The notes under the pieces: model-generated
Told to the model about the DNA's origin: nothing
Database searches by the model: none
The model's input: only the letters and a program-made list of their open reading frames with translations
NCBI RefSeq assembly: GCF_000165425.1
Contig: NW_001799007.1
Location: 125,334 to 189,333 of the forward strand
Direction: 5' to 3'
DNA from: Paramecium tetraurelia
Lineage: Eukaryota; Ciliophora; Oligohymenophorea; Peniculida; Parameciidae
Length of the DNA stretch: 64,000 nucleotides
Position numbers and translations under genes: made by a program
Shown: piece after piece, positions 2,980 through 53,261 of the stretch
Layout of the letters: each line of letters opens with the position of its first letter
How positions within the stretch are numbered: position 1 is the first letter of the stretch

Positions 2980-3686
2980 TAAAAATTTGTTTCAATTAGT
3001 TATCAATGGTTATATCTCATCATTTAAATCATCTATGCTGTCCATTTTGTTTTTATGAAATCTAAACAAAACCCCATCTCCATACCTATGTGTTTCTTAG
3101 TTAACTAATTGTATCAATAAAGCTGAAATTCCTTCTTATGAAAATGCTAATCAAGTATTAATTGAAGTAAGACTGCTAGAAATCATCATACCCTTAGAAT
3201 TCAAATGATAGTAATAATCATTTAATAATGCCAAATTTTGAATGAATCTTTTTTTCAATTGAAGTGTATGTTAGCAATATCCACAAGATATACAATTTGA
3301 TATTTAATAAGATTTAGTTATTTACATTATATTTTTCTTAATTACAAGCCCCTCATATTAACGAGTATAGATTTGAATCTTAGTAAAGGTCATTGCCCCA
3401 TTCTGTAACACATATGATTGAGAAAGGGATATAATGCTGTCTTCCTATTCCTAAATACCATTTCAATTTACTTAGGGAAATCGAAACAATGTTTGTTGGG
3501 CTATTTCAGCAATTTATAAAATTAGAGTATAAATAAATAGGAATTTTGTTTCAATAAAGTGGAGAACCTTAAAATAACTATTTATTGAATGTAATTAATA
3601 GTTAATAAAATTCTCACAGTTAATAAAAGAAATTAAATGAATAATTTAAATGAATTAATATTAATATTAATTTCTATATTAATAAA
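2980..3686. other. intergenic gap with an unexplained minus-strand open frame
   Basis: Between the Mei2-like gene and the phosphatase gene, the minus strand carries a frame of about 110 codons ending at a TGA at 3151-3153. If a 21-nt intron is removed near 3460-3480 it reads with good codon texture (for example SQSYVLQNGAMTFTKIQIY). No ATG opens it on the exon side, and no family is recognised. It may be a decayed gene, an exon of an unrecognised gene, or chance, since a frame closed only by TGA is long by chance in such AT-rich DNA. Confidence 0.25.
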
Positions 3687-17856: not shown

Positions 17857-19660
17857 ATGGAAGCATTTAGTGTAATTTTAATCGTCTTGATTGCTATTGT
17901 AATATTAGGCTTTATCATTTACCTCATAAAGATAAATATTACAAAAAAATAAAGCAATTAAAAATATCAAATTAGCGAGAAAGGTGAAAAGGGATATATT
18001 AATCCTAAAGACTAATAAACCTAAAACAAAAATAATCAAAACAAAGAAAAAAATAATTAATTAGATTACAAACATAATTCTGAGTTGAAAAAAAATGCGA
18101 ATCCAAATAATCTTTAAAATAATAGATAACAAAATAATTTATAATAAGCAGATGAATTAAAATTATAATCACAGAATATCACTCATGAATCACCAACATT
18201 AGAAAAGTTTGACTCTCAACTACCTATTTCATAAAATAATCAATAATAGAATTATCCAGAAATGCCATTAGGTAATCAAAATGATTATTAATAATAAATT
18301 AACCAGAATTCACAATTATACAATAGTAAAAATGACTAAGAATAAAATATTGAAAATGATTTATTATATAAAAATAAGGATAATTAATTACAAAATAATC
18401 TAAATGGTTATTTAATTAATGAGGATAGCTAAGAACAAAATTAAGTTAATAATTAAATATTTAGGGAAAATTAATAACCAAATAATAAGGATGCAAATAG
18501 ATCAAAAAATACTCAGGATAAAGATGAAGTAGTGATAAAAATATGGGGAGAAAGTTAAGAAAACACCGTGATCAATTAAGAGTATCATCCAAAAAAATAG
18601 ATTCAATAAGTCATATCCTAAATCATTAATGATAACTAATAAGATAACACTCTTTCAAGTTTTAAATCAAAACCTGAGCCTATACCTAAACCAGAGCCTG
18701 AGCCTATACTTTAACCCAAGCCTATACCCAAATCTAAGTATATACCCAAATCTAAGTATATACCCAAATCTAAGTATATACCTAAATCTGAGTATATACC
18801 TAAACCTGAGCCTATACCTTAACCCGAGCCGATACCTGTACCTGATCCATTAAAGCGAATAATTGCTGAGACTTCTAAAAAACGAAAAGTAGCAGTTGAA
18901 TATAAATATTATATCAGAAAATTTTAGAATAAATCAGAATTAAAAAAACATTATGGCCTAACATTAAAAGCAAGTGCAGAGTTATATAAATATTGCAATG
19001 CATTTAGAGAAGTAAGAGGAGATGGTAATTGCTTTTATACTGCTTTTGGATTTTAATTCTTATCTATTTTACTATTTAAGTATTCCTTAGACTAATTTAA
19101 TGATTTTTTTAATAAAATTAGACAAATTGAGTTGCCAATGAAAATATTTGTTCCTGGTACAAATTTAAAAATTGATGATAAAGAATTAGAAAAATAACTA
19201 TTAAATGAATTTTAACGTAGAATAACTAAACTAAAACTTATAAAAGATATAAACTAAAGAGAAGAATAATTTCGTACTGAATTTGCTGCCTATGAATAAT
19301 AATCAGATGAAATAGATGGATGTTTATATGGATTATCAACTTTATTTTTTAGAAATTATTCTAATTACGCTGTCGATTTTAGTGATGCCAAAGATGCAGT
19401 ATATGATAGAGTAAACTTATTAAATTGGGAAGTAGAATGTAATAGCAATGAAGTTGTTATTGCAGAATTAGCTAAACAATTAAATATGTACATATTTATT
19501 ATCTATTATAAGTTTTGTTTAATTAATTTATATAAAAAATAAAGAAAATGTAGTCATTAGGAATTATGGAATCAATGAACATCATAAAATTATATTATTA
19601 GAGCAGCCTGGACATTATAACATTGGTTATTTTTAATCCGAAAATAACCTGAATTAATGA
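17857..19660 (+). CDS. membrane-anchored OTU (otubain-like) cysteine protease
   Basis: Two exons (intron 19488-19512, 25 nt) give 592 residues. An N-terminal helix (FSVILIVLIAIVILGFIIYLI) should anchor the protein, followed by about 240 residues rich in Asn and Gln and a proline-rich repeat (KPEPIP/KSKYIP). The C-terminal domain starts with the OTU signature REVRGDGNCFYTAFGF, with the catalytic Cys at about residue 392 and the preceding Asp-Gly-Asn. It ends with ILLEQPGHYNIGYF, the catalytic His at about 578. This spacing and the PGHY motif fit the otubain (peptidase C65) branch, which removes ubiquitin chains. The 25-nt intron must be removed to link the two catalytic parts. Its paralogues are at 45-48 kb and 52-53 kb. 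Confidence 0.88.
18665..18850 (+). repeat. proline-rich coding repeat (about 12-aa and 8-aa units)
   Basis: Inside the OTU gene, units of the type PKPEPIP and PKSKYIP repeat between the Asn/Gln-rich linker and the protease domain. The DNA repeats are slightly diverged. The paralogue at 47.0-47.2 kb has the same region with a different set of units (LPPEPI and NPQPEP), so the repeat number and motif evolve quickly. Confidence 0.85.
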
Positions 19661-28133: not shown

Positions 28134-31100
28134 ATGACAAACAAAGTTGCTATCTTGCTGGTGCTTGTGGGGCTGATGAGCTGTATTTTTTGATTGTTAT
28201 CTCTAGTTGCAAGTGCCTCTTTGATAAATGTGCAATCATTAGCTCAGATCGACGTAGAGAGTTATGGATGTGACAAATCGAAGCTGTATGATGCCGAAGA
28301 AGGCCTCCAGAAACTCGGCGAGGCCCTTAATTTCGCCCAGACAGGAAAATTGGATCAAGACATAAAGGAATTGAGAGAATTACAAATGTTGGCAAGGAAA
28401 GGAATGGAAGAACAAGTGCAGGTTTCATTTGTTTAAGTTCACAATCTACAATACCTTTATATGTTGAAGCATAAATTTGATTCCTTGGCACTTATCGAAA
28501 TGCCAAACTCATTTGCTCGTCCCCATATTGACGGAATGAAATCTTAAATTAACTTAGTATTGGCAGCTACCGACACCCAAACCAGAAAAGCCTGCTGCGA
28601 AATGTTGTTCAAAATGATTGAAGTTCTACTTCTAGACCTACTCGAATTGGAAGAAGAATGCTAGAAGCCCATCACAATCAACATCGAAGGAGAAATCAGA
28701 AAAATCCAAATCATCAGAGGACATTGTGATAATACACCCACTCCAGAATAACCACCAGTCATCCCTGTTGATCCCATACCAATCAAACCCAAGGATCCAA
28801 CTCCTACCATTGTCATCCCTCCTAAACCAAGGGATCCAACTCCAACCATTGTAATCCCTCCAAAACCAAGGGATCCTACGCCCAAACCAGGAGACCCAAC
28901 TAAGCCTGAAGATCCAACTAAACCAAGAGATCCAACACCCAAACCAGGAGATCCAACACCCAAACCAGGAGATCCAACTAAACCAGGAGATCCAACTAAA
29001 CCAGGAGATCCAACTAAACCAGGAGATCCATCTAAACCAGAAGACCCAACTAAGCCAGGAGATCCAACTAAGCCAGGAGATCCTACTAAGCCAGGAGATC
29101 CTACTAAGCCAGGAGATCCAACTAAACCAGGAGATCCTACTAAACCAGGAGATCCAACTAAACCAGAAGATCCAACTAAACCTAAGGATCCAACTCCTAA
29201 GCCAAGAGACCCAACAGCTAAACCACCCCCTAAACCAAAAACACCAAGTCCAACTCCTTAAGTCGTTATCGATTGTGTCAAGGGGGCTAATGTCGTAGGT
29301 GACATGAGTGCAAGCTCAGATTAAGCCATTGCTGATTCAGTAATTGAAGGTAAAGACATTGCTGGAGCCACTGATTATGGTTATGGTTTCTGGATAAGAT
29401 GGTTGAGTAGATATCCAGATGAATTGGTCTCAGGAAGAACAAAAAACACCTATTACTTCGTATCCAGATTGACAACCAATCAAAAGTTCAATGATGCAGA
29501 AATGGGAGATAGAGTTCTGGCCATCTGGCATTATGATACTGGTTTCCATTTCACTACATTAGACAAAGCATCTCGTAATCCAAACGTAAATCAAAACATC
29601 CCAACAGGAGACATTGAAGGATTGTGGAGCTACGTCTACTATTCATATAGTGGAAGATTAAAGAGGGCTGTTGGTTTATTGAAATTTGGAGCCAGTGGAA
29701 AAGTACAATAACTCTCCTTAGATGTTACTCACGATATCCCAACATATTTGAGATTAGTTATAGGAGGTAGATAGTTTAGTTATCCTGGATTCAATGGGTA
29801 ATTCACTAATCCAGTCTTCAAGATTGGAGATGGAGCTTATGTTAATTCTGAATTGGAATTATTCGATTACAATCTTAAATGCAATCCTTATCCAAAATTA
29901 GATTGTACTGAAAGAGCTAAACAAACCTTAATCCACAAGGCTGTTAGATACAATGTTAAGACTACAAAAGTACAAACAGTTAAAACTAGTCTTGAAACAC
30001 CATTCCCTGAAGAATACTCAGTTAGTGGTTGGTTTAAATGGAAGTAAGTAGAGAATTAGGAGCCATGGCATTTGATGTTCAGAGTCTTTGCCACAAAAGA
30101 GAATAACAATGCCAAGAACTTAGGAGACAGAGATTTGGCAGCTTGGATTGGTACCGCAAATGATGGTATTGTGTTGTTGTCCACTTATTCATATAATAAC
30201 TTATTCGGAGAAGGTAACCCAAACATTATGAATCAAATCCAACACAAGAATAGAATTTAAGAATGGACATTTGTGTACTTTGGATATTCATTTAAATAAA
30301 AGACTGCTCATTCCATCGTTCACTTCAAGGAGGCTAGAGAAGAGAGAACATTTGAGAATGTCAACCATTTCTTAGTTTAAAGACTCTCAATCAATTTGGC
30401 AAAGGATGACCACTATCCTTCTTGGAACGGTATCATTGGCAAATTCAGAATTGATTTGTGTAATGGTGCTTATGATCCTAAATTCCCAAGAACTGCAACA
30501 CCAGTTCCAAGTCCATCACCATTAGGTCCAACTCCACCACCTTCAAAGACTGTTGAACCACCCCCCAAGACTCCAACCATCAAACCACCTCCTAAACCAG
30601 TCAAACCACCCACACCAGAAGTTGTAGTGTCACCACCTCCTCCCATCATCAAAACACCAGAAGTTATGCAAAAATGTATTGAAGGACAAGCTGCGATCGG
30701 AGATTCCTCTTCAGCACCAGATGTTAAGCCAGTTGCTGACATCTAAGTACCAGAAGAAGCCTTGAAGGATGTAACAGAATACGGTTATGGATTCTGGAGC
30801 AGATGGTTGACCAGACATCCAGAATAATTGTTTGAAGGAATGAGTGAACCATGGTATTTCGTATCAAGATTGACATCAAATGATCCATATGACAATATTA
30901 GAATGGGAGACAGATTGTTGGCAATCTTCTTGAGTAAAGATGGATACACATTCATCACAAATGATAAAGGAACATCTAATCCAAATCTCTATAAGTAATA
31001 ACCATACAAAGATATTGAAGGCGTTTGGACATACATTCATTTCAGTTTCAGTCCATTGAAAAAGAAGGCTGTTGCTTTTGTTCATGCCAACAAATAAACC

Positions 31101-34100
31101 TCATAAATTGAATTGGCTGGAGTCACACATGAAGCTCCAAAGAAATTAAGATTCATCTTGGGAGGTAACGATCTCAAACTCTATCCTGGATTCAATGGTT
31201 AATTCACAAGACCAGTATTGAAGATCGGTCCAGGTTCATTCATTGGTTCTCCTGAAGATGTTCAAAAGTATGCCTTATCATGCAACCCATTGCCAGAACC
31301 AGATTGCAAGAAGGGAAGAGGAGTCAGCAATTTGATTGAATCAACAAAAGAATTCAACAAGGGAAGCGAAGTCACCTTGTTTGTTGCTGATAATGAAAGA
31401 CCATTCCCAGATAATTATGCCGTTGGAGGTTGGTTCTTGTGGACACCAACAGAATAGGAAGACTGGCATTTAGCTTTCAGAGTTACAATTAATGGATAAA
31501 AACACAATAAGAATGATCAATTATTGGGAGACAGAGATCTCACAACCTTTTTTGAGCAAGTCAGGTAGTTATCACTTTGCTACCTATACCTACACTGATA
31601 ACTTCGGTAAGGGAATTCCCAACAAGTACATTAACACTGAACATTAAAACAAACACACTGAATGGCATTACATTTACATGGCATATTCAAGAGAGTAAAA
31701 GAGAGTATTGACCATTCTCTTCACAAAAGGAGATAGACAAGTCAAGTACATCGATGAAGTCAATCATTATCTTGCTCCATTGTACAAGATCTTCTTAGGA
31801 AAGGATCAATTCTACCCAGCTTATAATGGTTATTTGGCTAATGTCCAATTCTTTGCATGTGAAAGTGCATATGATCCCGATTACAAACCCCCTGGATAAC
31901 CAGAAGTACCAAAGTAACCTGAAGTTCCAGTTAAGCCACCTGAGCCATAAAAGGAACCAACATGTTTGAAGGGTGACACAACCATTGGTGATAGTGCTTT
32001 TGATTCATAAAAACCATTGGTAGATTTTGTGTTAGACAAACCAGAATAATTGTAAGATGTAAGAGAATATGGATATCAATTCTGGATGAGATACATGACT
32101 CGTCACCCTGTCCCAATGTATCAAGGTAAGAGAGCTCCTTGGTATTTCGTTGCCAGATTATCAGGCAGAAAAGACTTTGAAGATGTTGGAAAAGGTGATA
32201 GATTATTGGCAATCTATTAAGGTCAATCAGAATATACATTCGCTACTAATGATCATAAGAATAACAACTTCAATACAATTGCTGGTCGCTTTGAATTTGG
32301 AGATATTGAAGCAGTATGGACCTTTGTTCAATTCTCATATACTTCTGCAGGTAAAGTAGTTTCATGGATTTAATATGACAATAGTGAACCAAAGACTTTT
32401 TCAGTTGCTGTTACACATGACAAACCTGAATATTTGGAATTTGTATTAGGAGGTACCCAAGGCAATACCTATCCAGGATTCAATGGTCAATTCACATCTG
32501 TTGTTGTCAAAGTTGGATAAGGCTCATTCATAGAAACAGCCGAATAATTCCGTAAGTTTGCCATCAATTGCAATCCTAAACCACTCCCAGTTTGTAATAA
32601 GGCTAAGGAAGTTGTGTTGATTGAGAAGTCCAAGAGATTTGAAGCTTAAAGCAGTGAAGTTAATGAAATCACATCTCCAGAAGAGTAAGCATTCCCAGAT
32701 GAATACTTCGTTAGTGGTTGGTTCAAATGGAGATCAACAGTCATGGAACCATGGCATTTAGCTATTCGTCTTCATCAAAATAAGGGTATGGAGAATGCCA
32801 ATGCTGCCAAGTTGGGAGATAGAACCATAGGTGCATTCGTTGGAAACAATGGAAACTATGCAATCACAACCTATACATACACTAACTTGAATGGTGAAGG
32901 TGATCCAAATAAATATGTTTAAGTGCCTTATAAGGATCAATTAGCCTAATGGCATTTTGTGTTCATCGGATACAGTAGAGCTAAGAGATAAGTTGTTGGT
33001 TTCTTGTAATGGAAGGACAGAAAGGAAAATATTAACTTAGAGAACATCAATCATTATCTAACCAATTCAGTTTATGTCAATGTAGGAAAGGATAGATTTT
33101 ACCCAGCATTCAATGGACACATTGGATCATTGAAATTGTAATTATGCAGTGGAGCATTCACACCAGTATTCCCAGAAGATCCTTAACCACCTTAGGTACC
33201 ATCTACTCCACCTCCTCCCAAACCAGTTGACCCAACAAAACCAGGTGATCCTACTAAACCAAGTGATCCAACTAAACCAGGTGATCCCTCAAGACCAGAA
33301 GATCCAGTTCAACCACCCAGACCTGCAGATCCTGAAATTGTCAGAAAGTGTGTTAGTGGTTAAGTTCAAATTGGAGATATGCCTTCCAGTGGTGATAAAG
33401 TTGTTGATCTCAAGGTCACTGAGGATAAATTGGGAAGTGCAATCGAATACGGATATGGATTTTGGACCAGATGGCTCACAAGATGGCCAGATAATCTCAT
33501 TAAAGGAGCCAGTGAACCATGGTATTTCATTTCTAGATTGACAAATAATGATCCATATGACAACATTAGAATGGGAGACAGATTATTGGCTATTTGGTTA
33601 GGTTAAGCTGGTTATACATTCATCACAAATGATGTTGCTTCAGGCAATCCTAATCTTAATAAATAAATACCTTATGGAGATATTGAAGGTGTTTGGACCT
33701 ATATTCATTTCAGTTATAAATCAGGATAAGCTGTTGGTGCTATTAGAATTGGAGACAAGACTCAATTCACAGTTCTTGATGCCAAACACGACTAACCTAA
33801 ATTCTTGAGATTGATTGTCGGTGGTTCTGATCTCAAATAATATCCAGGATTCAATGGTCAAATCTCATCACCAATTCTTAAATTAGGTGCTGGTTCATTT
33901 GTAAATACTGAAGATGATTTCAATAAATTCGTGTTAGCATGTAATCCAAGACCTGAACCAGATTGCAAGGGCAAGACTGAAAGCAAATTGATTGAGGGTA
34001 TCAAGAAATATGAATCTACCCAACCAGATTTTTATGAACATGTTAGAGATGAGAAATCTCTCTTCCCAACTATGTATGGTATTGGAGGTTGGTACAAATG

Positions 34101-36190
34101 GGAACCAACAAAGTAGGAACCATGGCATTTAGCATTTAGAATTACAACAAATGATTAGAAGACCAATAAGAATGCTGAAATATTGGGAGATAGAACACTT
34201 GCAGTTTGGTTAAGTGATCAATAATTGTATGCATTTGCCACATATACTTATACAAACATGTTTGGAGCTGGATAACCAAATGCAGCCTAAGTCATTAAAC
34301 ACTAAGATAAACACACTGAATGGCATTATATTACATTCTAATACAACAGAGAGACCAGAGAAGCATATGGATCCATTGTGTTTAAGGATGGTAAATTAGA
34401 TTTGAAATTCCCCAATACAAACCATTACTTGGTTCCAGTGTTGAGAATATTGATAGGAAAGGATCAATTCTACCCAGCATTCAATGGATACATTGCTGAT
34501 GTGATATTTGTTAATTGCCAAGATCCATACAATCCACAATTCACTCCAGGAAACCCACCTGAATTACCAAAACCACCTGTTATTCCAGTTGAACCACCTT
34601 AGCCATTCCCAGAACCTAAATGCTAGATGGGTGACGAAACTGTTGTGGATTCTGCATTTGATGATTTCAAACCATTGGCTGATATTGAAGCAACTCCAGA
34701 GAATTTGAAGGACATCAGAGAATACGGATACTCATTTTGGGTTAGATATTTAAGCAGACATCCTAAACCAATGTATTAGGGCAAGAGTGAACCATGGTAT
34801 TTCATGAGTAGATTGACAGTCAATAAGGAATATTAGAATGTTGAGAAGGGAGACAGATTGTTGGCCATCTGGTAAGGTCAAGGAGCTTACACATTTATTA
34901 CCAATGATTATAAGACCAGTAATTGGAATGCAGCCAAGAACATTGAATATGGAGACATTGAAGGAGTTTGGACATATATTCATTTCAGTTACAGCAGTGT
35001 TACAAGTCAATCAGTTGGTTTTGTTAAGGTACACAGGCAAAGAACCATAATCAGTCACATTTGATGTCACTCATGATAAACCAACATTCTTAAGACTCGT
35101 CATCGGAGGATCAGATCTCAAATTGTATCCAGCCATCAATGGTCAATTAACAAGAGCTGTCTTTAAGATTGGTGCTGGTGCTCATCTTGACACTGTTGAT
35201 GAATTGAATAAGTTCGCATTGGCTTGCAATCCTCAACCTAAGGAAGTCTGCTCCAAGGCTGTTGAATAAGTCCTCATTCAAGAATCCAAGAAGTTCGAAT
35301 TAGCCAAGTCTACAGTGTTGGAAATCCCATCTGATCCTGAAGCTGCTTTCCCATCTGAATACAGTGTCTCTGGTTGGTTCAAGTGGAAGGAAACAACTAT
35401 GGAATAATGGCATTTGGCCTTCCGTCTCCACATCAACAAGGAAGAAGCAAACAAGAATGCTGAGAGATTGGGAGATAGAACATTGGCTGCCTGGGTTTCA
35501 CCAGCTCAAGATGGTATTTACGCCTTTGCCACTTACACCTATAAGAATTTGAATGGAGCTGGAGAACCAAATCTGGCCAAGGTCATCCCTCAAAAACAAC
35601 AATAAACCAATTGGCATTTCATCTTCTATGCTTACAACAGAGATACCAGAAAGGCAGAGGGATACGTTCAATTCAAGGACAGAAAGGAAACCATACTCTT
35701 TGAAAATGTCAACCACTTCTTGGTGCCGTAAGTTTACTTGAACATTGGTAAAGATCGTTTCTATCCTTCATGGAATGGTCATATTGGTAAATTCAGAATG
35801 AATCTATGCGGTGGAGCCTCCAGACCTGTTTTCCCCAATGGTATTCTATTCTTTCTATTATCCCCTTAGATATTGATGTTCCTCCTCCCGTGACCCCAAC
35901 TCCAAAACCACCTGTCTCTGAAACTAAAGAGTAATTTATATTTAATATCTTTTAGAATCTGTCTTATCAACACTAAATTGGTAGAGGTTACCAAGAACAA
36001 CGTCAAAGATGTTATCAAATAACTTGAAGCTCTTGAAAACTCAGAACCTACTGAAAAGACATGCTATTGTACTGTCCCCAAGAAGGCCTCCATGTTTATT
36101 GAGCTCTATGGAGAAGAATTATCCAATCATGTCGACAACCCAGTCATTTAAAGATTAATAGCTCAAAATCAGGTGCGTTTGAGGATATGA
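28134..36190 (+). CDS. giant secreted repeat protein: five two-module units with Pro-rich linkers; two frame changes
   Basis: The gene spans 8 kb. Introns at 28183-28206, 35841-35869 and 35931-35955 are removed. Two extra bases, in the T-run at 31548-31553 and at about 35028, must be skipped to keep homology, giving about 2,658 residues. A signal peptide (MTNKVAILLVLVGLMSFASA) and an N-terminal helical domain come first, then a KPGDPT repeat. Five units follow (from about 29.27, 30.68, 31.97, 33.33 and 34.62 kb). Each has module A (EYGYGFWxRWLTRHP, EPWYFVSRLT, MGDRLLAIW, IEGVWTYIHFS, YPGFNGQ and a CNPxPxxxC pair) and module B (FPxxYxVxGWFKW, PWHLAFR, LGDRxLAAW, WHFIFxxYSR and GKDRFYPAFNG). 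Both modules look like beta-sandwich, LamG/ConA-like repeats. A Cys-containing helical tail ends the protein. It is probably extracellular or in secretory granules. Confidence 0.85.
28770..29240 (+). repeat. KPGDPT 18-nt tandem coding repeat
   Basis: About twenty near-identical 18-bp units encode KPGDPT with variants KPEDPT, KPRDPT and PKPGDPT. They link the N-terminal domain of the giant secreted protein to its first module. A shorter version of the same repeat recurs in the linker near 33.23-33.31 kb. Repeats of this kind form extended, polyproline-like spacers and readily change copy number. Confidence 0.92.
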
Positions 36191-45147: not shown

Positions 45148-48100
45148 TCAATATTAGTTTTCCTCTTCTTATTAATATTCTTACTTTTCTTTTAACTATT
45201 ATTAATTGTTTAGTAATAATTATTCATTTTGATTTTAAGGTTGTTAATCATTGAAATTTAAGTTATTTTCGGATTAAAAATAGCCAATGTTATAATGTCC
45301 AGGCTTAATTAATAATATAATTTTATGATTTTTATTGATTCCATACTCCCTAATTACTATATTGTTACTATTTTCTATAAAAATTAATTAAACAAAACTT
45401 ATAATAGTTAATATATATGTACGTATTTAATTGCTTAGCTAATTCTGCAATAACAACTTCATTACTATTACATTCTACTTCCCAATTTAATAAGTTTTCT
45501 CTATCATATACTGCATCTTTGGCATCACTAAAATCGACAACGTAATTAGAATAATTTCTAAAAAATATAGTTGATAATCCATATAACAATCCATCTATTT
45601 CTTCTGATTATTTTTCATAGGCAGCAAATTCAGTACGAAATTATTCTTCTCTTTAATTTATATCTTCTATTAGTTTTAGTTTAGTCATTCTACGTTAAAA
45701 TTCATTTAATAAGTATTTTTCTAATTCTTTATCATCAATTTTTAAATCTGTACCAGGAACAAATATTTTCATTGGCAACTCAATTTGTCTAATTTTATTA
45801 AAAAAATCATTAAATTAGTCTTAGGAATACTCAAATAGTAAAATAGATAAGAATTAAAATCCAAAACTAGTGTAAAAGCAATTACCATCTCCTCTTACTT
45901 CTCTAAATGCATTGCAATTTTTATATAATTCTGCACTTGTTTTTAATGTTAGGCCATAATGTTTTCTCAATTCTAATTTATCCTAAAATCTTCTGATATA
46001 ATATTTAAATTCGTCTTATATTTGTCTATTTTAAGAGGTCTCAGCAATTATATGCTTTAAAGTGTCTAATTCATTAATTCTATTCACAGGCTGAAGTATA
46101 TTGATATCATTTGAATGTTGAGGTTGGTTTATATTTTATGGTATTTCAATTTGAACTTAATTTTCTTGACTATTATCTTGTCTATTTTCTGTTTCATTTA
46201 TTTGCTAAAAATAGCCAATGTTATAATGTCCAGGCTTAATTAATAATATAATTTTATGATTTTTATTGATTCCATACTCCCTAATTACTATATTGTTACT
46301 ATTTTCTATAAAAATTAATTAAACAAAACTTATAATAGTTAATATATATGTACGTATTTAATTGCTTAGCTAATTCTGCAATAACAACTTCATTACTATT
46401 ACATTCTACTTCCCAATTTAATAAGTTTTCTCTATCATATACTGCATCTTTGGCATCACTAAAATCGACAACGTAATTAGAATAATTTCTAAAAAATATA
46501 GTTGATAATCCATATAACAATCCATCTATTTCTTTTGATTATTTTTCATAGGCAGCAAATTCAGTACGAAATTATTCTTCTCTTTAATTTGTATCTTCTA
46601 TTAGTTTTAGTTTAGTCAGTCTACGTTAAAATTCATCTAATAAGTATTTTTCTATTTCTTTATCATCAATTTTTAACTCTGTACCAGGAACAAATATTTT
46701 CATTGGCAACTCAATTTGTCTAATTTTATTAAAAAAATCATTAAATTAGTCTAAGGAATACTCAAATAGTAAAATAGATAAGAATTAAAATCCAAAACTA
46801 GTGTAAAAGCAATTACCATCTCCTCTTACTTCTCTAAATGCATTGCAATTTTTATATAATTCTGCACTTGTTTTTAATGTTAGGCCATAATGTTTTTTCA
46901 ATTCTAATTTATCCTAAAATCTTCTGATATAATATTGAAATTCATCTGCTACTTTTCGTTTTTTAGAAGTCTCAGCAATTATTCGCTGTATAAACTCTAA
47001 TGGATCAGGTACAGGTATCGTCTCGGGTTAAGGATTAGGCTCGGGTTAAGGATTAGGCTCAGGTGGAAGTATAGGCTCAGGTGGAAGTATAGGCTCAGGT
47101 GGAAGTATAGGCTCAGGTTTAGGTATAGGCTCAGATTTAGGTATAGGCTCGGGTTAAAGTATATGTTCAGGTTAAAGTATAGGCTCAGGCTCTGGTTTAG
47201 GTATAGGCTCAGGTTTTGATTTAAAACTTGAAAGAGTGTTATCTTATTAGTTATCATTAATGATTTAGGATATGACTTATTGAATCTATTTTTTATGGAT
47301 GATACTCTTAATTGATCATAGTGTTTTCTTAAATTTCTCGCCGTATTTTTATCACTATTTCATCTTTATCCTGAGTATTTATTGATCTATTTGCATCCTT
47401 ATTATTTGGTTATTAATTTTCCGTAAATATTTAATTATTATCTTAATTTTGTTCTTAGCTATCCTCATTAATTAAATAACCATTTAGATTATTTTGTAAT
47501 TGATTATCCTTATTTTTATATAATAAATCATTTTCAATATTTTATTCTTAGTCATTTTTACTATTGTATAATTGTGAATTCTGGTTAATTTATTATTAAT
47601 AATCATTTTGATTACCTAATGGCATTTCTGGATAATTCTATTATTGATTATTTTATGAAATGGGTTGAGAGTCAAACTTTTCTAATTTTGGTGATTCATG
47701 TGTGATATTCTGTGATTAATCATATATTTCAATTTTTAGTAAATTCTATTACCCTTTATCTCTTTTTTATTATACTTATTATGATTTTAATTCTTCTGGT
47801 TATTATAAATTATTTTGTTATCTATTATTTTAAAGATTATTTGGATTCACATTTATTTTTAAATCATCATGAGAATTATTTTTGTAATTAACATATTATT
47901 AATTTTCTTGACTGCTCTTCCTTAATTTGCTTTATTTTTTTCATAAGTTTGAGTTTCTTATTTTTTATCATAACAATAGATATCTAATTAATTTTTTGTT
48001 TCTTTGTTTTAGGTTTATTAAACTTTATGATTTATATCTTCCATTTCAGCTTTCTCGCCAATTAGAGGATCTTAATTGCTTTATTTTTTTGTATTACTGT

Positions 48101-48176
48101 TTTTTAAACAGTAAATGATAAAGCCTAAAACTACAATACCCACTATGATGATCAATATTATTAAAGACGGTTCCAT
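45148..48176 (-). CDS. tandem double-OTU protease gene, possibly a pseudogene
   Basis: The minus strand encodes an N-terminal membrane helix (LIILIIIVGIVVLGFIIYC), an Asn/Gln-rich linker, a proline repeat and then two OTU domains, each with GDGNCFYTSFGF and IKPGHYNIGYF. Each domain has its own copy of the 25-nt intron. The linker between them is Gln/Asn-rich, and a polar tail follows. With the two introns removed the total length is divisible by three (992 residues). However, comparison with the 17.9-kb paralogue shows two offsetting frame changes, near 47.88 kb and 47.29 kb (an extra base in the A-run of CATCCATAAAAAATAG). The second could be explained by a 34-nt intron, but the first has no good intron. 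It is either a recently damaged gene or a gene with unrecognised introns. Both OTU domains themselves are intact. Confidence 0.75.
45275..46010 (-). repeat. second OTU domain copy of the internal tandem duplication
   Basis: This block is nearly identical to 46206-46941, at an offset of exactly 931 bp. The unit includes the OTU coding region and its 25-nt intron. Since 931 minus 25 equals 906, the duplication adds 302 codons in frame only if the intron is spliced out. A 73-codon stretch is identical in both copies at the protein level, which points to a recent event or gene conversion. Confidence 0.93.
46206..46941 (-). repeat. first OTU domain copy of the internal tandem duplication
   Basis: This is the partner of 45275-46010. 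The few differences are mostly single-base substitutions (for example around 46577 and 46672), and they keep the reading frame. The copy at 52085-52830 is a third, more diverged homologue of the same block. Confidence 0.93.
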
Positions 48177-51860: not shown

Positions 51861-53261
51861 TCACGTTAATGGTAATAATTAAAATCCTATTATTTTGAAA
51901 GCATCTTTTTACTTCAAAGTATTATTTTGTTTCAAAATGGCAATTTCACTATATAATTTTTCTATTTTTTCTTCTGCTTCTTGCAAAGTATTCTACTGAT
52001 TATTGCCATACTCATAATCTTTCCAATTTATCCCCTTTAGTTAATTTAAGAATTAGATATATTAATCAATGATGGTATCTTGTAGATAATATCCAATATT
52101 ATAATGTCCAGGCTTAATTAATAATATAATTTTATGAATTTTATTGATTCCATACTCCCTAATTACTATATTGTTACTATTTTCTATAAAAATTAATTAA
52201 ACAAAACTTATAATAGTTAATATATATGTACGTATTTAATTGTTTAGCTAATTCTGCAATAACAACTTCATTACTATTACATTCTTCTTCCCAATTTAAT
52301 AATTTTTCTCTATCATATACTGCATCTTTGGCATCACTAAAATCTACAACGTAATTAGAATAATTTCTAAAAAATATAGTTGATAATCCATATAAACACC
52401 CATCTATTTCTTCTGATTATTGTTCATAGGCAGCAAATTCATTACTAAATTATTCTTCTCTTTAATTTATATCTTCGATTAGTTTTAGTTTAGTCATTCT
52501 ACGTTAAAATTCATCTAATAGTTATTTTTCTATTTCTTTATCATCAATTTTTAAATTTGTATTAGGAACAAATATTTTCATTGGCAACTCAATTTGTCTA
52601 ATTTTATTAAAAAAATCATTAAATTAGTCTTAGGAATACTCAAATAGTAAAATAGATAAGAATTAAAATCCAAAAGCAGTATAAAAGCAATTACCATCTC
52701 CTCTTACTTCTCTAAATGAATTGCAATTTTTATATAATTCTGCACTTGTTTTTAATGTTAAGCCATAATTTTTTCTCAATTCTGATTTATCCTAAAATCT
52801 TCTAATATAATATTTCTAATTTTCATCAACAGCGCGTAATTTGGAAGAATAATCATAAATTTATTTAATTTTATTTACACTCTATTAAACAATTTGTTAT
52901 GATGTTTAATATATTAAGAGATTACCGCAAGATTTATGCTAATATTCTACCTGTTTTTACAGTTTTTGAAATTATTTAACAATATTTGACATTATTAACC
53001 GATTTTGATCCATCTAAACTGTACTCTAATTTTCTTGAATTGAAAGCTTCTATTCCTCATCTTATTAAAACTTATAATACATATCTTTTGATCCTCTAAC
53101 AACTTTAATTGAATACCTTCATTTTCTTTTGGTTAAATTTTCGATTGCCCACATTTTTTTCCGTAACAGAATAACAATAATAAAAATAACACAAGTATTA
53201 AAATGTACCACAATAAATAAGAAGGTTGTTCTGTCTCTTTCTCTGGCAAATCTTCGCTCAT
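51861..53261 (-). CDS. membrane-anchored single-OTU protease with C-terminal coiled coil
   Basis: Three exons (introns 53061-53080 and 52207-52231; 20 and 25 nt) give 451 residues. After a short acidic start comes a hydrophobic anchor (LLWYILILVLFLLLLFC). It differs in sequence from those of the other two OTU loci, and the Asn-rich linker and proline repeat are missing. The OTU domain is intact (VRGDGNCFYTAFGF and IKPGHYNIGYY), with the intron at the same position as in the paralogues. After the His motif the protein diverges and ends in a helical, coiled-coil-like tail (TLQEAEEKIEKLYSEIAIL). So the OTU module has been combined with different N- and C-terminal parts at each locus. Confidence 0.83.

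Follow-up and report, generated by a model that had tools for sequence, protein, structure and literature searches.

A gene on contig C54 of Paramecium tetraurelia carries two nearly identical OTU domains in tandem, and its history is probably one of otubain amplification, domain doubling, partial homogenisation and 5' decay, the full two-headed protein most likely not being made. A decaying duplicate is, in our judgement, more likely than a working two-headed enzyme. The window analysed is the 64,000-nt stretch C54:125334-189333, and searches described as genome-wide covered the 69.07-Mb assembly (231 contigs). Reading is of the ciliate type throughout the window, with TGA as the sole stop (table 6). 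Three loci of peptidase family C65 lie within it, namely the doubled-OTU target and two relatives, p18 and p52 (Table 1), out of at least 26 C65 domain places in the genome, a lower bound taken from a hand-typed merge of two search lists with separate OTU-family places left out. Elsewhere in the window, the plus strand at 28386-35893 holds large GC-richer ORFs in which domains of similar appearance are separated by KPGDPT-type tandem repeats (TRF arrays at 28784-29225 and 33220-33306), and a scan of the window with the bacterial code found no tRNA.

Two OTU domains in a direct repeat

On the minus strand, a direct repeat with a spacing of 931 bp makes up the two OTU copies, c1 and c2. Their likeness is far above chance, and the earlier description of two nearly identical domains at this distance was confirmed: over 727 bp (45275-46001) they differ at 8 positions (98.9% identity), with no difference at all in the 326 bp at the 3' end (45275-45600). 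Over 791 bp (45275-46065) the count is 25 (96.8% identity), of which 17 crowd into the last 64 bp (46002-46065; 73.4% identity), and past 46065 the alignment in register ends. A DNA search of the genome with a 149-bp query containing the linker (46062-46210) returned only the match to itself and found no origin for the linker.

Table 1. Features of the doubled-OTU locus and of its two relatives in the window (window positions).
Feature	Position	Strand	Remarks
ORF from ATG 48176, 109 codons	47847..48176	-	N-terminus like that of p18; ends at TGA
Gln/Asn-rich region	47257..47942	-	open in a frame other than those of the ATG and of domain 1
1-nt length difference from p18 (frame break)	47280..47310	-	
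region of 18-bp repeats (Pro-Glu-Pro type) lying upstream of c1	47010..47223	-	
c1, OTU copy 1, upstream domain	46206..46996	-	RGDGNCFY and PGHYNIGYF motifs
putative c1 intron, 25 nt, GTA...AAG	46329..46353	-	GTACATATATATTAACTATTATAAG; same site in relatives
linker between c1 and c2	46066..46205	-	open frame, without in-frame ATG
c2, OTU copy 2, downstream domain	45275..46065	-	5' edge (46002-46065) about 73% identical to c1
putative c2 intron, 25 nt	45398..45422	-	GTACATATATATTAACTATTATAAG; identical to that of c1
C-terminal tail to TGA	45148..45274	-	start of tail resembles that of p18
p18, intact single-OTU relative	17857..19660	+	N-terminal architecture as in the target; intron of 25 nt at the shared site; spliced product of 592 aa
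p52, single-OTU relative	52084..53082	-	syntenic with C81b, a single-OTU gene on contig C81

Both copies match the Pfam model Peptidase_C65 (PF10275) above its cut-off of 24.3 bits (51.9 bits for c1, 50.1 for c2), and c2 aligns with residues 48-259 of the 264 of human OTUB2 (E=2.1e-8), including the GDGNCFY and HYNI motifs, which we take to hold the catalytic Asp-Cys and His residues. At both sites c1 has the same letters as c2, and the two Cys and two His sites that had been predicted thus appear, as judged from the motifs, to be kept in both copies. Human OTUB1 and OTUB2 (family C65) resemble the target in the Pfam model match and in the c2-OTUB2 alignment, but they are single-domain proteins, whereas the target has tandem domains and its relative p18 carries a Gln-rich and repeat region. 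After the Cys motif, c1 and c2 have a Ser in common where p18, p52, C81b and C28b have an Ala.

The putative 25-nt intron

As the original prediction had it, an identical 25-nt stretch, a putative intron, lies at the same site in each copy. Removal of both stretches yields one open frame running through c1, the linker and c2 to the TGA ending at 45148, while retention of the c1 stretch brings a TGA soon past domain 1 and loses the His motif. The accompanying argument, that the doubling is in frame only in spliced RNA as 931 minus 25 gives 906 nt or 302 codons, is arithmetically correct and the doubly spliced frame is open. It is also true that the arrangement works only because each copy keeps its intron, but this is not special to the doubling, since single-domain relatives reach their own His motif only with an intron at this site removed. 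A GTA...nAG candidate occupies the site in 13 of 21 family rows of the genome (c1 and c2 included); the site is common to the family and an intron-bearing block was copied in frame, so the 906-nt arithmetic is no special feature of the doubling.

The acceptor in these 13 rows is TAG in seven, CAG in one (C81b) and AAG in five, the last being the four C54 rows and C28b, whose stretch is a multiple of three and of uncertain intron status. A C28 family member (L041 / L071) has a 24-nt GTA...AAG at the intron site, and its frame is kept spliced or unspliced. The intron-site script returned no candidate in the other 8 of the 21 rows (L042, L046, L048, L053, L055, L059, L060 and L064); in five of these the His motif is absent from the stretch, and by eye only we noted a 23-nt GTA...TAG in L048 and a 25-nt GTA...TAG in L064. 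We discounted by eye the extra candidates that lie upstream in C54 rows, and a single one in L056.

Paramecium introns are given a size range of 20-34 nt (PMC11334263, PMC9612004). According to Table 1 of PMC9612004, GTA-nAG introns make up 91.8-94.9% and GTA-TAG introns 65.5-72.6% depending on expression class. Acceptors other than TAG are thus common, and non-GTA donors account for some 5-8% of annotated introns. The 25-nt length and GTA donor of the target stretches fit this pattern, while their acceptor is AAG and not the commonest, TAG; an AAG-ended 25-nt intron is plausible, though not the commonest form. A longer TAG-ended intron in its place was considered and, by eye, rejected, as the in-frame 55-nt option would delete a conserved stretch and has no in-frame counterpart in p18.

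Frame break in the 5' part

The relative p18, whose frame is open from its ATG up to the intron, has an N-terminus that appears hydrophobic by eye, followed by a Gln-rich and repeat region. It differs from the target at 10 of 333 bp in the Gln-rich region, and the start of the C-terminal tail is common to p18 and c2. Compared with p18, the target is longer by a net 86 nt near 47.95 kb and has 1 nt inserted near 47.3 kb; any other length change is a multiple of three. Together the gain and the insertion make 87 nt, so that ATG 48176 and domain 1 share a frame overall, and this frame contains three TGAs before domain 1 (47849, 47354 and 47318). An assembly base error could mimic the 1-nt break.

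None of the 44 ATGs between 49.0 and 46.98 kb reached domain 1 when up to six GTA...nAG introns were allowed in the range 18-36 nt or 15-60 nt, and a separate search with GTA donors and the acceptors AAG, CAG or TAG likewise found no ATG path into domain 1. A search of this type found the p18 start without an intron and, for C81a, a two-OTU gene described below, one path with a canonical intron. When any GT...nAG intron of 18-36 nt was allowed, 18 of the 44 ATGs reached domain 1, all by routes with at least one non-GTA donor: one via a 20-nt GTT...GAG, seven via a pair of GTG...GAG and GTA...TAG, and ten via a 34-nt GTC...AAG stretch, by itself or together with a second intron. The start that had been predicted, ATG 48176, is linked to domain 1 only via two non-GTA introns (a 29-nt GTG...TAG and the 34-nt GTC...AAG) and by no GTA-donor path; two consecutive non-GTA introns would be rare. 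The 34-nt stretch is identical, letter for letter, in p18 at 18610, where p18 reads through it and its removal would break the frame.

Probable homogenisation and age of the doubling

The uneven identity of c1 and c2 probably reflects homogenisation. Their longest concordant run gave p=0.0146 by permutation, whereas the same data put to a simple test of uniform placement gave P=0.059, so gene conversion between the copies is likely, though unproven. The suggestion that the copies are recent or homogenised thus finds signs of homogenisation, but not proof of conversion. At the same time, c1 and c2 are only 73% identical at the 5' edge and the linker is unique, which points to a doubling of greater age than one would read from the 100% stretch by itself. 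Long c1-p52 and c2-p52 runs (p=0.0004 and 0.0012) were rejected as proof of conversion because at the 15 sites it is p18 alone that has changed, and its exon 2 evolves fast. This exon (19511-19633) stands much further from its C54 counterparts than does p18 exon 1.

The interval containing p52 (C54 167.4-178.7 kb) is syntenic with that of C81b (C81 108.3-119.1 kb), with two neighbours conserved on both contigs at 84% and 73% identity. Exon-1 dS is 0.70-0.81 between C81b and the C54 copies, 0.075-0.106 among the C54 copies and 0 between c1 and c2; exon-1 dN/dS is 0.49-0.73 in five C54 pairs (c1-c2 excepted), and exon-2 dN/dS is 1.0-1.8 for p18 against c1, c2 and p52. The domains' uneven 5' edge was excluded from all of these counts, as from those of the run tests. 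By these dN/dS values, constraint among the C54 copies is weak. The 195 codons compared between c1 and c2 show 9 nonsynonymous changes and no synonymous one, which is not significant (chance about 0.15, calculated by hand from the site counts).

Other tandem OTU domains in the genome

C81a (L066 from 1808 to about 3375) would encode 504 aa in a single spliced frame that takes in two OTU domains. In the first domain the Cys and His motifs are degenerate, and the homologous site holds a canonical 25-nt GTA...TAG intron; the second is intact and lacks an intron at that site, having one elsewhere with two possible donors. Against Pfam the first domain scores 16.7 bits, below the cut-off of 24.3 (E=0.0052), and against a profile of eight family domains it gives E=1.8e-8 in a single-sequence search, with a large composition bias (21.4 bits, the score being 20.4), so its assignment as an OTU domain depends on profile and intron position jointly. 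C81a resembles the target in its two OTUs, its single spliced frame and the 25-nt intron at the same first-domain site, but differs in its degenerate first domain, in the wide divergence between its two domains and in the acceptor (TAG, where the target has AAG). Tandem OTUs are probably not confined to the target in this genome. A further OTU domain match starts about 0.25 kb downstream of C81a (at 3630), and a cluster on C40 has tandem OTU domains with a TGA after the first. We rejected C81a as the whole-genome-duplication partner of the target: the only C65 place found in the syntenic C81 interval is the single-domain C81b.

Discussion

In the history we favour, an otubain-like (C65) family member would have been copied locally on C54, and an OTU block with its ancestral intron would have doubled in tandem within one copy. 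The two blocks would then have been partly homogenised, and the 5' coding part of the doubled copy would have lost its frame, perhaps along with expression and under relaxed selection. Against decay are the stop-free spliced domains, the whole motifs and the open linker; at low divergence and with one stop codon, however, intact frames say little either way. The same features speak for the two-headed otubain of the original prediction, which would be a working enzyme if the 5' break were an assembly base error or were bridged by non-GTA introns, with c1 splicing gating domain 2. That prediction holds as far as the doubly spliced frame, open over both domains and with Cys and His motifs in each, and it gains from C81a as a second two-OTU gene and from the 18 ATGs, 48176 included, that enter domain 1 with any GT donor. 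It falters at the start of the gene, where GTA...nAG introns admit none of the 44 ATGs and where 48176 needs a 34-nt intron that p18 reads as coding, and we consider a working two-headed enzyme unlikely.

A shorter product could begin at ATG 46703, inside c1 and past the Cys motif, and would join a Cys-less half-domain to a full c2. With both introns removed, its frame stays open over 501 codons as far as the TGA at 45148, and C81a shows a like order, with a first OTU devoid of intact Cys and His motifs before an intact one; such a product would, however, require an internal transcription start, for which we found no support, and is quite improbable. That only one OTU copy is real and the other an assembly mis-join is highly improbable: although 326 identical bases might mislead short reads, the two copies show 25 differences in 791 positions, the linker is unique, and the outer flanks on both sides resemble p18. 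The idea of separate genes, one for each OTU copy, can draw on the C40 cluster as an example of split tandem OTUs, but the target has neither a stop nor an in-frame ATG from the c1 intron to the c2 Cys motif, which makes separate genes scarcely credible.

In the set of papers searched, none joins Paramecium and otubain; the sole paper joining Paramecium, OTU domain and deubiquitin concerns Wolbachia, and in a wider search ciliate otubains were absent from the titles among the matches listed. A comparable layout is that of LotA of Legionella, a single chain whose two catalytic OTU domains are reported to be cooperative (PMC10133868). LotA is bacterial and its two OTU domains differ in specificity, and we liken it to the target by domain layout only. 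An improbable but broader proposal is that two-OTU otubains arose at least twice here (target and C81a), that retention of the weak AAG intron switches between a His-less truncated domain and a two-headed enzyme, and that gene conversion keeps sites and introns identical.

If the locus is dead, as decay of the duplicate would have it, it offers a plain case in which an intron-bearing domain underwent in-frame doubling and later decay. A live locus would be a tandem otubain in a eukaryote, comparable to LotA, in a many-copy family. Either way, an in-frame domain doubling needs a check of the path from the start codon before function is inferred.
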